From contig VXUA01000076.1 of assembly GCA_009837185.1 (NCBI GenBank), forward strand, positions 1 to 49,411: a stretch of 49,411 bases of DNA, read 5' to 3'. Source of the stretch: Gammaproteobacteria bacterium. Its GTDB lineage: Bacteria; Pseudomonadota; Gammaproteobacteria; Pseudomonadales; Azotimanducaceae. The position numbers were made by a program, and so were the translations under genes. Below the pieces are notes generated by a model, which searched no databases, was not told the origin of the DNA, and saw only the letters and a list, made by a program, of their open reading frames with translations. Shown here piece after piece: positions 38,948 through 47,628 of the stretch; within the stretch, counting starts at the first letter, position 1, and the number at the start of each line of letters is the position of its first letter.

Positions 38948-40876
38948 ATGAACAAAGACTACTCCGCCGCGTCAATAACCGTTCTTGAAGGACTAGATCC
39001 CGTACGGCGACGCCCGGCAATGTATACCGACACAAGTCGCCCGAATCATCTGCTCCAAGAAGTGGTCGACAATTGCGTAGACGAAGTGCTGGCAGGGTTT
39101 GCGACTCGCGTTGACGTCGAACTATTACCCGATGGAAGAATTCAAGTCAGCGATAACGGTCGGGGTATGCCAGTCGACGAGCATCCCGTGCACAAGATGT
39201 CCGGTGTTGAACTAATCATGACAACTTTACACGCTGGTGCGAAATTTGACAACGAAGCATATCGTTTCGCCGGAGGTCTGCACGGCGTGGGGGTCTCAGT
39301 CGTCAACGCATTGTCAGAATGGATGGAAATTGATGTGCGGCAGAATGGTTTGCACTATCAACAACGGTTTGAAAACGGGGAAGCAAAAAGCCCGCTGTCG
39401 GTGATTGGAAACGTCGCAAAAAGAGATACCGGTACAGTCGTCACTTTCAAACCCAACGCGAGTTTCTTTGACAGTGCATCTTTGTCAATGCCACGCGTAC
39501 TTCATGTACTCCGCGCAAAAGCAATCTTGTGCCAAGGTCTTACTGTATCGCTTAAACATTGGGAGAGCAATCAAGAGTACACCGATATTTGGCTTTATGA
39601 GAAAGGTTTAGTAGGGTACATCCAAGAGAGTACCAATGGCAATTTGATACCACAACAACCGTTTGCTCACAAAGTGACTGGCGAGCATGAATCTGTGGAC
39701 GTCGCGATGGGATGGTCTAAAGAACGTAGTGATCAGCTGGCAGAAAGCTACGTGAACTTGATTCCAACTCCGCTGGGCGGTACTCATGTAAACGCTCTAC
39801 GTACTGGAATCACCGATGCGATGCGTGAGTTTTGCGGTTTTAGAGACTTACTTCCACGGGGAATTAAACTGACTGCTGAAGATGTCATGGGCCAGTGTTC
39901 TTATGTGCTGTCGGCTATGCTCAAAGAACCACAATTTAGCGGGCAGACTAAAGAACGACTTGCCTCCCGAGAGGCTACTGCCTTCATCGGTGGGGTGCTT
40001 AAAGATGCATTTAGTCTGTGGTTGCACGAACACCCCTCGGAAGGGGAACAAATCGCCGAGTTCGGTATTACCAATGCTCAGAAAAGGATTCAAGCAGCCA
40101 AGAAAATCAAACGCAAGACTTACACGTCGGGACCGGCATTACCGGGCAAACTCGCAGACTGTACCTCGCAGGATGCACCACGTAGCGAATTGTTTCTCGT
40201 CGAGGGAGATTCTGCTGGAGGCTCGGCGAAGCAAGCAAGAGATCGAGAGTATCAAGCGGTCCTACCGCTTCGTGGCAAGATTTTGAACACATGGGAAGTC
40301 GATGTTGCCACGATTCTAGGATCACAGACCGTGCTCGACATTACGCAGGCTCTCGCTGTCGAACCTGGATCGGATGACCTATCCAAGTTGCGATATCACC
40401 GAGTGTGTATTCTCGCGGACGCCGATTCAGACGGTGCACACATTGCTACTTTACTGTGTGCTTTATTCCTGCGCCACTTTCCAGAGCTCGTGCGCGCTGG
40501 TCATATCTTTATCGCAATGCCACCTCTCTATCGAATTGATGTTGGGAAAGAAGTCTTTTATGCAATCGACGAGTCGGAAAAGCAAGGGATCTTGGACCGT
40601 CTAAAGACTGAAAAATCCCGTTCTCAACCAGTGGTGCAAAGATTTAAGGGTCTAGGTGAAATGAACGCACTGCAATTACGCGAAACTACCATGGCACCAG
40701 ATACGCGTAAATTGGTTCGCTTGACGCTGAATGAACCAAACAAGACTCACGATGTAATGGACATGATGCTCGCAAAGAAACGCGCAAAAGATCGTCGCAA
40801 TTGGCTCGAGTCTTGTGGCGACGAAGCGGACATCCAACGCTATTTATCCGACGGCGCGGTCGTCGCGACTCCGTGA
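38948..40876 (+). CDS. parE: DNA topoisomerase IV subunit B
   Basis: Encodes 642 residues from ATG 38948; an upstream in-frame start at 38879 lies within cpdA. The GHKL ATPase domain shows LEGLDPVRRRPAMYTD, VVDNCVDEVLAG, DNGRGMPVD and GGLHGVGVSVVNALS. The TOPRIM region has LVEGDSAGGSAKQARDR and ILADADSDGAHIATLL. The length (ParE 630, GyrB about 800) and the lack of the GyrB insert identify ParE. With ParC it decatenates replicated chromosomes. parC follows after 24 bp. Confidence 0.96.
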   Translation: MNKDYSAASITVLEGLDPVRRRPAMYTDTSRPNHLLQEVVDNCVDEVLAGFATRVDVELLPDGRIQVSDNGRGMPVDEHPVHKMSGVELIMTTLHAGAKFDNEAYRFAGGLHGVGVSVVNALSEWMEIDVRQNGLHYQQRFENGEAKSPLSVIGNVAKRDTGTVVTFKPNASFFDSASLSMPRVLHVLRAKAILCQGLTVSLKHWESNQEYTDIWLYEKGLVGYIQESTNGNLIPQQPFAHKVTGEHESVDVAMGWSKERSDQLAESYVNLIPTPLGGTHVNALRTGITDAMREFCGFRDLLPRGIKLTAEDVMGQCSYVLSAMLKEPQFSGQTKERLASREATAFIGGVLKDAFSLWLHEHPSEGEQIAEFGITNAQKRIQAAKKIKRKTYTSGPALPGKLADCTSQDAPRSELFLVEGDSAGGSAKQARDREYQAVLPLRGKILNTWEVDVATILGSQTVLDITQALAVEPGSDDLSKLRYHRVCILADADSDGAHIATLLCALFLRHFPELVRAGHIFIAMPPLYRIDVGKEVFYAIDESEKQGILDRLKTEKSRSQPVVQRFKGLGEMNALQLRETTMAPDTRKLVRLTLNEPNKTHDVMDMMLAKKRAKDRRNWLESCGDEADIQRYLSDGAVVATP

Positions 40877-40900
40877 CACTGAGTAGTTCAGGATTCCATC

Positions 40901-43135
40901 TTGAGCATTTTTGACCACGAGTTAGACGACATAGATTTACACGAGTACACCTCGAAGGCGTATCTCGATTATTCGATGTACGTGATCAACGACCGTGCGT
41001 TGCCTTTTTTGGGCGATGGTCTAAAGCCGGTACAACGACGGATAGTCTATGCGATGCGACAACTCGGACTGACCTATCAAGCAAAGTACTCAAAGAGTGC
41101 TCGCACCGTTGGAGATGTCATCGGTAAGTTTCATCCACATGGAGAAAACGCATGTTATGAATCGATGGTCTTGATGGCACAACCGTTCTCGTTTCGATAT
41201 CCTCTGGTCGATGGACAGGGAAATTGGGGGGCACCCGACGAACCGAAGTCTTTCGCGGCACAACGCTACACGGAGTCCCGTCTAACTCGAGAAGCTAGCT
41301 TGCTCTATGAAGAACTGAATCAAGGGACCGTGGAATATATACCAAACTTCGACGGCACGCTTGAAGAACCGGTTTGTTTGCCTGCGGAATTACCCTTCTT
41401 GTTGTTGAATGGAAGTACTGGAATCGCGGTCGGCATGGCGACGGACGTTCTACCTCACAACCTTGGTGAAGTGGTTAACGCCTGCGTTGCTACGTTGCGA
41501 AACGAACGACTTCCGGTCAGCGAGTTGATGAAGGAATTACCTGGTCCAGATCTTCCGACCGGTGGATTAATAACGTCCAGTACCGAAGAACTCCAAAGAG
41601 TCTACGAAAGTGGTCAGGGCACTGTGCGCTGTCGAGCACGCTATGAACGGGAAAACGGGGATATTGTTGTCACCGAAGTCCCTTATCAAAGCTCGCCGTC
41701 GCGTATTTTGGAACAGATCGCACAACAAATGCAAGCCAAGAGACTACCGATGGTTGTCGATCTTAGGGACGAATCGGATCATGAGAATCCGGTGCGACTC
41801 GTGATCGTTCCTAAGTCGAATCGCGTGGATGTAGACCGACTGATGAGTCACCTATTCGCAACAACCGACTTAGAGCGTAGCCTTCGGATAAACCTAAACG
41901 TAATTGGACTCGATGGTAAACCGCGGGTTTACCCGCTGAATCGGCTGATTCGGGATTGGCTCCGCTACCGGAAAATCACAGTACGCCGACGAATCTTGCA
42001 CCGGGTTGAACAGATTCAACGTCGTCTTGAAATTATCGCGGGACTGCTCATTGCGTATTTGAATCTGGACGAGATCATTCGCATAGTACGAGAGGAAGAC
42101 CAACCCAAACCCGTTCTCATGCAGACCTTTTCTTTGTCCGACGTACAAGCAACTGCGATACTCGATTTACGCGTTCGACAATTGAGTCGCTTAGAAGAAG
42201 AAAAGTTAAACACCGAAAAACAAGAACTGTCAGACGAGCTTGCGAAGCACCAGCTTGTTTTAAACTCGACGCAGCGACTGAACACCCTAATTCGTAAGGA
42301 GTTGCAGGAAATATCCGATAAGTTTGGAGATTCACGAAGAACCTCCATCGTTGACGATGTTGGTCTCGCCGAATCCTATGCGGACGCTGACTTAGTTTCA
42401 AACGAACCCGTGACTGTCGTGTTATCGCAAAAAGGGTGGGTGCGAGTTGCCCGCGGGCACGGTACTGTAGACCCAATCACTCTAAATTACCGTGAAGGCG
42501 ACGATTATCTTAGCTCGTGTCTTGCTCGAATGAACGACTCGTGCGTGTTCTTCGATTCCGCAGGACGCGCTTATTCCTCTGCGATAACGGCACTGCCTTC
42601 AGCCAGAGGCCAGGGAGAACCTCTTACGAGTATATTCTCATCACCTGCTGGTTCGCGCTTTGTTGGTCTAGTGAGTAGCCATATTTCGGAAGTGTTTGTG
42701 GCGAATTCGTATGGGGAGGGTTTTCGACTACCAGTGAGTGCGGCATTGTCTCAAGTTAAAGGCGGTAAAGCTATGGTTGTACTTGACGAGAGTAGGGAAT
42801 TGGTTGCTGCCAACCCAAGTCAAGCAGACAGCATCGTGGTACTGATTACTAAAGGTGGTCGAATACTAGCTCTCCAAAGTCATGAAATTCCAGTTCGACA
42901 ACGCGGGAAAGGCGTTCGACTAATTGGAATCTCACGCAAGGATTTATTCAGCGAGGATGACGCATTGGAATTTGCAGTGAGCGTAGCACCAAGAGCGAAA
43001 GTTGCTCTCACGTCCGGACAACGTACGATGACTTTAACATCGAAACGAATTGAAGAATACGTTGGTAAGCGAGGCAACTTAGGCAAGCGGCTCCCGCGAG
43101 GCTACACGAAAGTTTCCTCAGTGAGATTGGTCTAA
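40901..43135 (+). CDS. parC: DNA topoisomerase IV subunit A
   Basis: Encodes 744 residues (E. coli 752) from a TTG start. The winged-helix breakage-reunion domain has [35 protein letters not shown] and the catalytic Tyr in [11 protein letters not shown]. The quinolone-region residues are intact. A coiled tower follows (about 360-480), and the C-terminal beta-pinwheel domain has degenerate G-K-G-V-R-L-I and [13 protein letters not shown] blades. It ends 4 bp inside the convergent epmB gene. Confidence 0.96.
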
Positions 43136-45659: not shown

Positions 45660-45917
45660 ACTTCCGTTTACATCAAATGTAGATTTGAAGGTGACCGAGT
45701 AGGCACAATTCTTTCGACACAAGATAGAATAGATTTTTTGATTGAATTCAACGACAATGACTGACCTTATTGTCAGATGGTTAAGTTAGGTACCTGCTAA
45801 AAGAGAACTTCAGATGGGAACACTGAGCGAAAAGTGGGTGTTTTTGTATGTATTAGGATGTTTGGTTACAGCGGGTATCTGTGTAAGTGGCAGTATTGCA
45901 TGGTTATTCGAAGGAAA

Positions 45918-45925
45918 TTTTCATG
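45918..45925. repeat. Target-site duplication, left copy
   Basis: TTTTCATG immediately outside the left terminal repeat, identical to 47248-47255. Confidence 0.85.
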
Positions 45926-45952
45926 GGGAATTATTAGGATAAATAACCAAAC
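45926..45952 (+). repeat. Left terminal inverted repeat
   Basis: 27 bp, the exact reverse complement of 47221-47247. It supplies the premature TAA that ends the 5' fragment of the interrupted gene. Confidence 0.88.
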
Positions 45953-45988
45953 CACTTGTTAGTTGTTCATCTGTGCTAAAATTTCAAA

Positions 45989-47221
45989 ATGCAACCAAAC
46001 TGGTCGAATCAAACGATCTTCACAGGTGATTGTCTTGACGTTATGCGTAGGATGAATTCTGAATGTGTCGATCTCATCTATCTAGACCCGCCGTTTAATT
46101 CTAACGCAAACTATGCAGCACCCGTAGGGAGTGAAGCTGCTGGAGCGGAGTTCAAAGATACGTGGGGATTAGACGATCTCAAAGTGGCGTGGCACGCGCT
46201 CATTCAACAGGAACATCCCGACCTCTACCAGTACCTCAAAGCAGTGCTGGATATGCACAGCAAGTCTATGATGGCATACCTCATTTACATGGTGGTGCGG
46301 ATTATGGAAATGAAACGGTTGCTCAAACCGACAGGGAGCATTTACCTACATTGCGATCCTTACGCCAGTCATTACTTGAAATTGCTACTAGATGTAATTT
46401 TCGGTAAAGAGTGTTTTAGAAACGAGATTGTATGGTGCTATACCGGACCGGGGGCTCCTAATCAAAAACAGTTTTCGCGAAAACATGACATCATTCATTG
46501 GTTTTCCAAAAGTGAGAAGTGGAAATTTAATAACCAATTAGTAAGAGTGCCTCACAAAAAACCTATTGGACAGGGAGGTACTTCTGCCAAATGGGCGAAC
46601 GGTGAAGATGTATACGAAAAATATCAGAATGGGAAAATTCCTGAAACCTGGTGGTCGAATTTTTCACCAGTAGGACGAATTAAAAGTGAACGCGTCGGCT
46701 ATCCCACACAGAAACCTCTTGCACTGTTAAATCGAATCATCAAAGCTAGTTCCCATGAAGACGATGTTATTTTGGACCCGTTCTGCGGTTGTGCGACGGC
46801 TTGTATCGCGGCGGAGATGCTCGGTCGACAATGGGCGGGGATTGATGTTTCGCCTAAGGCTGCAGAACTTGTAAAACTACGTATGGATCGAGAACTTGGA
46901 ATATTTTATCAGGGAGCGCATTTGTTGGATGATGCAATCGAACGGACTGATATTGCACCTCTTCGCAAATACAATTCAAAAGAGAACAGAGAGACACTCT
47001 ATGGCAAACAGAGGGGTATTTGTAATGGATGTAGAGAGCATTTTCAAGATCGCCATTTAGAGATAGACCATATCGTACCCAGCTCACACGGTGGCGGAGA
47101 CCATCTTACCAATCTCCAATTACTCTGTGGTAGTTGTAATCGTATCAAGGGGAATAGACCGATGGAATATTTAACCTCTCGATTACAACATTCCAATCTA
47201 ATGACATTTGCTGCAGGGTAG
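45989..47221 (+). CDS. Beta-class DNA methyltransferase fused to an HNH endonuclease domain
   Basis: Encodes 410 residues. The methyltransferase motif IV, DPPF (residues 33-36), precedes motif I, DPFCGC (263-268), the order of beta-class N6-adenine or N4-cytosine enzymes; the target-recognition region lies between. A C-terminal HNH domain (about 335-395) has zinc pairs Cys345/Cys348 and Cys380/Cys383 and the catalytic E-I-D-H (358-361) followed by G-G-G-D-H-L-T-N-L-Q-L-L. Methylation and cleavage modules in one chain suggest a single-protein restriction-modification or modification-guided nicking enzyme. A -10-like TAAAAT lies about 15 bp before the ATG; the stop overlaps the right terminal repeat by one base. 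Confidence 0.9.
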   Translation: MQPNWSNQTIFTGDCLDVMRRMNSECVDLIYLDPPFNSNANYAAPVGSEAAGAEFKDTWGLDDLKVAWHALIQQEHPDLYQYLKAVLDMHSKSMMAYLIYMVVRIMEMKRLLKPTGSIYLHCDPYASHYLKLLLDVIFGKECFRNEIVWCYTGPGAPNQKQFSRKHDIIHWFSKSEKWKFNNQLVRVPHKKPIGQGGTSAKWANGEDVYEKYQNGKIPETWWSNFSPVGRIKSERVGYPTQKPLALLNRIIKASSHEDDVILDPFCGCATACIAAEMLGRQWAGIDVSPKAAELVKLRMDRELGIFYQGAHLLDDAIERTDIAPLRKYNSKENRETLYGKQRGICNGCREHFQDRHLEIDHIVPSSHGGGDHLTNLQLLCGSCNRIKGNRPMEYLTSRLQHSNLMTFAAG

Positions 47222-47247
47222 TTTGGTTATTTATCCTAATAATTCCC
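47221..47247 (-). repeat. Right terminal inverted repeat
   Basis: 27 bp, the exact reverse complement of 45926-45952; its first base is the last base of the methyltransferase stop codon. Confidence 0.88.
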
Positions 47248-47255
47248 TTTTCATG
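47248..47255. repeat. Target-site duplication, right copy
   Basis: TTTTCATG immediately outside the right terminal repeat, identical to 45918-45925. Confidence 0.85.
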
Positions 47256-47628
47256 AATATCTTGCCATCTGCGGTATGGGCATTGGTATTGCTGCGATCC
47301 TTCAAGCCACAACCTTGATGATTACCTCCAAGCGCATTTCTCATGAGCACAAAAATATCTCCACTGGAAAGTTCCTCCAGACTCTCTTTCGGTTGTTAGG
47401 TTCGAAAGTATCTGTAGGCGCGTCCATGCATCTCGTGGGTGTGAGCTTACTCATGTCGAGCATGATGATTTGGAAGACCTACAGTCAATTTTTTGGTGTA
47501 TGGTTAGGTGTGACCAGCGTCGGATATATGGTCGTCATGCCGATACTACATTGGACAGATTTACGATTTACGTCGGGCACGAAGCACGCCCGTTACAGAT
47601 AACTTAGACCTACGATCGGGGTTCGCTG

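Follow-up and report, generated by a model that had tools for sequence, protein, structure and literature searches.

The question raised by this locus is how a unit that holds a single gene, for a methyltransferase joined to an HNH nuclease, and no transposase came to lie between perfect terminal inverted repeats in the middle of another gene. The window, meaning the whole 49,411-nucleotide stretch of DNA that was analysed, contains the following features at this place, each given with the evidence on which it rests.

45814 to 45925, plus strand: 5' part of the split host gene, left duplication copy included (frame restoration, orthologues)
45918 to 45925, no strand: target-site duplication TTTTCATG, left copy (sequence)
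45926 to 45952, plus strand: left terminal inverted repeat, 27 bp, at the methyltransferase-start side (sequence)
45989 to 47221, plus strand: methyltransferase-HNH gene, 410 aa (open reading frame; TAG stop 47219-47221)
46067 to 46873, plus strand: N6_N4_Mtase domain PF01555, residues 27-295 (above Pfam cut-off)
46439 to 46687, plus strand: variable central segment, residues 151-233 (segment-wise identity comparison)
47021 to 47158, plus strand: HNH nuclease domain PF01844, residues 345-390 (above Pfam cut-off)
47221 to 47247, minus strand: right terminal inverted repeat, 27 bp (sequence)
47248 to 47255, no strand: target-site duplication TTTTCATG, right copy (sequence)
47256 to 47602, plus strand: 3' part of the split host gene (frame restoration, orthologues)

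The two arms agree at 27 of 27 positions, or over 30 nt at 97% when extended, and the duplication directly outside them is 8/8. With its repeats, the unit measures 1,322 bp, 93% of which is the single open reading frame, whose stop codon shares one base with the right repeat. In a scan of the whole window for repeats of at least 17/20 with a duplication of at least 7/8, this unit was the sole pair, and the same criterion gave 0 pairs in 10 order-1 Markov resamples of the window. With a laxer repeat threshold of at least 13/20, 2 pairs are present in the window as against 4 over all 10 resamples; among the inverted repeats listed for the window (within 6 kb), the next has 30 nt at 77%. Positions 40258-41074 of the window hold a pair that scores 13/20 in its repeats and 8/8 in its duplication, probably by chance, because the resamples yield such pairs at a comparable rate.

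Excision in silico of the unit together with one duplication copy restores an intact frame of 152 aa, for whose C-terminal part there is no Pfam match. Of the 17 further genomes of the genus, two have an orthologue of this host gene, uninterrupted in both G013 (87% identity) and G002 (62%), and the remaining 15 have no match at E<=0.001. At the empty site of G002 both sides are collinear with the window, epmA included (2,081 bp, 72%). In G013, the junction and the downstream side are collinear (1,530 bp, 83%); the alignment begins nine codons into the host gene, the upstream side differs, and epmA was not found upstream of the host gene in the stretch examined. The repeats, the duplication, the single dominant gene and the restorable host gene, all described in the initial annotation of this locus, are therefore borne out. 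The same annotation had treated empty-site strains that lack the membrane gene altogether as a sign against its reading; both G002 and G013 keep the gene, uninterrupted.

The link to a transposase family comes from the sister genome G013, the only one of 57 relatives searched in which the first 23 bases of the end are present with at most 2 mismatches. They belong to a 2,653-bp element, L073 (3044-5696 of that locus, equal to G013 C23:66543-69195), so that the ends of the window unit match those of a transposase-bearing IS1595 element, with 2 mismatches in 27 in the first repeat and 5 in 27 in the second. L073 encodes a 319-aa protein with the domains DDE_Tnp_IS1595 and Zn_ribbon_IS1595, both above the Pfam cut-off, and also carries a methyltransferase-HNH frame in the same direction as the transposase. 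Its duplication, 7/8, is weak because it lies within a T run.

Homologues of the gene were examined at 43 loci (21 from the genus, 10 from wider genome contigs and 12 from the source genome, whose more distant matches were excluded), which after removal of three duplicates (L016/L114, L017/L103, L019/L102) leave 40 distinct ones. A first inverted-repeat scan of 13 homologues from the source genome and others, made without a duplication test, gave only few; later scans added the test. Matching ends of at least 17/20 with a duplication of at least 5/8 bound 11 of the 40 distinct loci, and at 15 the distance to an IS1595 transposase is 3 kb or less. The duplication is 8/8 at L108, L117, L119, L121, L056, L013, L015, L020 and the window unit, and lower at L073 and L102 (6/8). 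Nine of these 11 loci have the transposase inside; the other two are the window unit and L119. Transposase and methyltransferase are both enclosed at L108, L117, L121, L056, L013 and L015, all with 8/8 duplications, and at L102, while the element at L020, with the duplication A8, contains a gene fragment only, the main copy adjoining it. The hosts of the bounded loci are this genus (Gammaproteobacteria), Dadabacteria (L013), Dehalococcoidia (L015) and Latescibacteria (L020). Homologues never bounded by such repeats elsewhere, the other pattern held to speak against a mobile unit, are thus not what was found; they are bounded in other genomes, nearly identically so in L073.

L119 (G013 C27) is 1,358 bp long, with 20/20 ends and an 8/8 duplication, AACAAAAA, and its methyltransferase is broken, being spread over three frames. 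Beside the Dadabacteria element, at L013:6827-7269, there is a 443-bp unit with 20/20 ends (GGTAATTACCCC...) and an 8/8 duplication, TAAATTTA, which is apparently a small non-autonomous element.

At 25 of the 40 distinct loci no IS1595 transposase was found within 3 kb, and therefore the gene also occurs outside such elements. The closest protein relatives, L102 and L103, are without window-type ends: the repeat of L102 differs at 9 of 27 positions, and L103, a locus at a contig end, yielded no repeats. A second recurrent setting of the methyltransferase family was observed at L025 (G000 C45:22500-30500), L026, L028, L030, L104 and L120, where the methyltransferase start lies directly 3' of a paralogous protein, about 465 aa long and hydrophobic at its N-terminus. 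This protein is whole in L025, L026, L104 and L120, and L028 and L030 are placed here by similarity of the upstream DNA; C45 has two such units in tandem, and no terminal repeats were found at the loci of this group.

The source genome, an 86-contig draft that is 95% complete, has 28 matches to the 410-aa protein, several of the homologous genes lying at contig ends, and 9 IS1595 transposases. With up to 3 mismatches, the 27-bp end occurs at 3 places in it, and the first 17 bases of the end at 10 places, as against 2 for a reversed control pattern; once the window and C70 copies are set aside, the remaining places seem to be solo ends or to have arisen by chance. The C70 copy (G000 C70:72676-73067; L004:2677-3068) is a 392-bp unit whose ends differ from those of the window at 2/27 and 5/27 positions and which retains only the methyltransferase start and the HNH end, laid out as in the window. 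No 8-bp duplication was found at its borders, and a search with its joined flanks placed them on the same strand of G013 with 12.7 kb between them (76% and 95% identity, the left match being possibly to a paralogue); a simple insertion is therefore less likely than some rearrangement next to the unit, such as a deletion.

Neither the 27-bp nor the 17-base search (up to 3 mismatches) found an IS1595 transposase with matching ends in the source assembly, and therefore the unit looks orphaned there and may now be stuck. No cognate transposase was thus found in an assembly that is 95% complete, the gaps of which may explain the absence. The transposase that moved the unit may so be missing from the assembly, may have diverged, or may have been supplied upon the unit's arrival. 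The initial annotation had proposed a search for an insertion sequence with the same ends and for further copies of the unit; of the former, one with nearly the same ends exists in the sister genome and none was found in the source assembly, and of the latter the C70 unit has near-same ends and lacks the duplication.

Other ends were noted in the source genome. Three of the nine transposases (C39, C25, C19) are adjoined by ends starting GGGAATTAT, which diverge further in. The site C39:7464, upstream of an IS1595 transposase, was considered as an end and was rejected; it is taken as chance because a nearer GGGAATTATATACTTGAC end stands between it and the transposase. At C47 (L058), 20/20 ends starting GG enclose a transposase and a distant (32%) methyltransferase, with a duplication of only 4/8. 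An end-like GGGAATTATTAAGATAG is present at L062:1501-1517 (G000 C27:148670), for which no partner end was seen by eye in the stretch read.

The passenger holds methyltransferase and nuclease domains in one chain (PF01555 and PF01844), as is expected of a single-protein Type II restriction-modification enzyme, and the PADLOC models that it matches are those of Type II, which scores best, Type III and orphan methyltransferases. Compared over residues 1-150, 151-233, 234-325 and 326-410, and counted as percentages of aligned residues, its identity is 92%, 31%, 75% and 65% to L103, 84%, 35% (31 of 83 aligned), 81% and 89% to L102, and 63%, 67%, 57% and 65% to the Dadabacteria protein L013. These identities form a mosaic, and therefore the central segment was inherited apart from the rest of the enzyme; it is probably the target-recognition region, a role with which the mosaic fits. 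At the C-terminus of L117 (2612-3934 of that locus, inside an IS1595 element), T5orf172 (PF10544) replaces HNH, and L056 (943-4500) and L119 have T5orf172-like C-termini as judged from reading their translations. The less ordinary aspect of the case is that the central segment and the nuclease domain are swapped between relatives, which suggests that the elements both spread and reshuffle one-protein restriction-modification-like genes.

For the N-terminal part, dN/dS is 0.05 against L102 (dS 2.3, near saturation) and 0.05 against L103 (dS 1.0), the two comparisons in which dS was computable (four others gave none), so that this part is under strong constraint. A promoter scan before the gene gave nothing convincing: the region has 2 sites, and shuffled sequence 3.7. 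Among 50,697 phage records, 287 match the window protein, only 2 of them with at least 80% query coverage, and the 15 phage matches listed align to the methyltransferase part only. Of 298 other genomes sampled across the phylum, 1 has a match at E<=1e-60; the close family is therefore rare beyond the genus and the wider genome-contig records already matched.

The unit is very probably a non-autonomous derivative of the IS1595 family with a methyltransferase-HNH passenger, and other accounts of it have to be weighed against that reading. It is highly improbable that a selfish methyltransferase-HNH gene moved in a homing-like manner by means of its own nuclease, with the repeats incidental. The presence of HNH in the same chain and the 25 homologue loci away from IS1595 transposases would suit such movement, but perfect inverted repeats with an 8-bp duplication mark DDE transposition and not homing, the relatives with such ends encode the IS1595 transposase, and L056, L117 and L119 keep ends and duplication with a T5orf172-type region in place of HNH, which is hence dispensable for movement. 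A contribution of the HNH domain to its own movement, as initially suggested, finds no support, and it was rejected as unneeded. Equally hard to credit is the loss of a transposase gene from the unit during metagenome assembly: the unit is internal to a 49-kb contig, with a complete reading frame and a perfect duplication, no other copy of the end was found beside a transposase in the assembly that might cause a collapse, and G013 holds another transposase-less unit, L119, all of which outweighs the number of contigs in the draft and the homologous genes at their ends.

A different matter is whether the passenger, instead of being restriction-modification-like, is an orphan methyltransferase with a regulatory role towards the element or the host, its HNH domain being inert or nicking only. 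The PADLOC list does include orphan models, and the idea would be a serious contender, somewhat short of an even chance; against it, the nuclease part is constrained along with the methyltransferase in several relatives, or is replaced by another nuclease-type domain. It touches the job of the passenger and not the nature of the element, and may be compatible with an IS1595 derivative.

That the unit is such a derivative is based on direct observations, namely the ends, the duplication, the empty sites of relatives, and transposase-bearing elements with near-same ends or the same gene family. It has no DDE_Tnp_IS1595 transposase of its own, as an IS1595 element in the strict sense would, hence its classification as a derivative; the perfect repeats and the duplication with empty sites are those of an IS1595-derived, or mobile insertion, cassette. 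The ancestor would have been an IS1595-family insertion sequence with this passenger, from which internal deletion would have removed the transposase gene, so that the passenger came to fill the interior. When the unit inserted, its repeats would have been bound by an IS1595 transposase of the DDE/zinc-ribbon type supplied in trans, which would have carried out the insertion and produced the 8-bp duplication. The passenger would be a one-protein restriction-modification-like enzyme, its specificity shifting by exchange of the central segment. Both mobilisation in trans and the function of the enzyme we infer from these comparisons. The earlier proposal, in which a transposase that makes 8-bp duplications moves the passenger in trans and IS1595 is one of the candidate families, gains support from the ends, the transposases and the gene family of the relatives. 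The points against the IS1595 reading are the weak duplication of L073, the different ends of L102 and L103, the 25 loci without a transposase within 3 kb, the C70 unit without duplication, and a source genome in which no transposase with window-type ends was found.

Sequence in this case links a methyltransferase cassette without a transposase to a specific transposase family. With the empty sites, and an autonomous relative whose ends nearly match, mobilisation in trans can be tested directly. IS1595 elements bear methyltransferase-nuclease genes in several bacterial phyla, and the exchange of recognition and nuclease segments is a possible route for the spread of restriction-modification specificities. 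A bolder and rather doubtful proposal is that IS1595 is a dedicated vehicle, across several phyla, for one restriction-modification-like family of single proteins with an exchangeable HNH/T5orf172 nuclease and recognition segment; the enzyme would serve as an addiction or defence module that retains even transposase-less copies, and the elements as a pool in which recognition segments are shuffled.

Among known systems, 8-bp duplications and, outside the IS1016 group, a zinc finger are usual for IS1595 members (excerpt of PMC8101967), and ISApl4 of this family has mostly A/T-rich 8-bp repeats and forms circles (excerpt of PMC12561309). The transporter-IS form of IS1595 resembles the window unit in its 8-bp duplication, its ends starting GG and a passenger unrelated to transposition, and the relatives of the unit encode the IS1595 zinc-ribbon DDE transposase; the unit itself differs in having no transposase and a methyltransferase-nuclease fusion as passenger. 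The mobilisable IS1595-type elements tISCpe8 and MTnSag1 have cargo other than a methyltransferase-nuclease, as far as the passages on them go (PMC5704250). Similar too are the mobile insertion cassettes (MICs), described along with insertion sequences that have passenger genes (excerpt of PMC3129680), in which IS ends surround a passenger without a transposase and movement in trans is presumed; in the present case, however, the cognate insertion sequence is in the sister genome and none was found in the same genome. The view that the arrangement is unusual was thus half right, for it matches this known notion. Some restriction-modification units, as reviewed, are flanked by inverted repeats that are imperfect and by a short duplication (excerpt of PMC3874152) and are in this respect like the window unit, which differs in that its transposase family is identified and its enzyme is one protein. 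Among the neighbours of IS1, 'site specific DNA methyltransferase' is over-represented, at 37.2% of couples (excerpt of PMC9208149).

The protein itself resembles the beta-type N6/N4 DNA methyltransferases, its residues ~100-300 matching the solved structures of RsrI, MboIIA and CcrM, and differs from RsrI, MboII and CcrM in the HNH domain added at its C-terminus and in its variable central segment. Furuta et al., in 2010, reportedly described inverted repeats and a short target duplication at the borders of restriction-modification units. The 2009 work of Siguier et al. on IS1595 is said to relate IS1 to IS1595 in its title and may mention passengers of the methyltransferase kind. No priority is therefore claimed, even if no IS1595 element with a methyltransferase-nuclease passenger was found in the titles and opening abstracts searched. 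The principle, of transposase-less cassettes and of insertion sequences with passengers, is already known, and what is new is a clean example tied to a transposase family.
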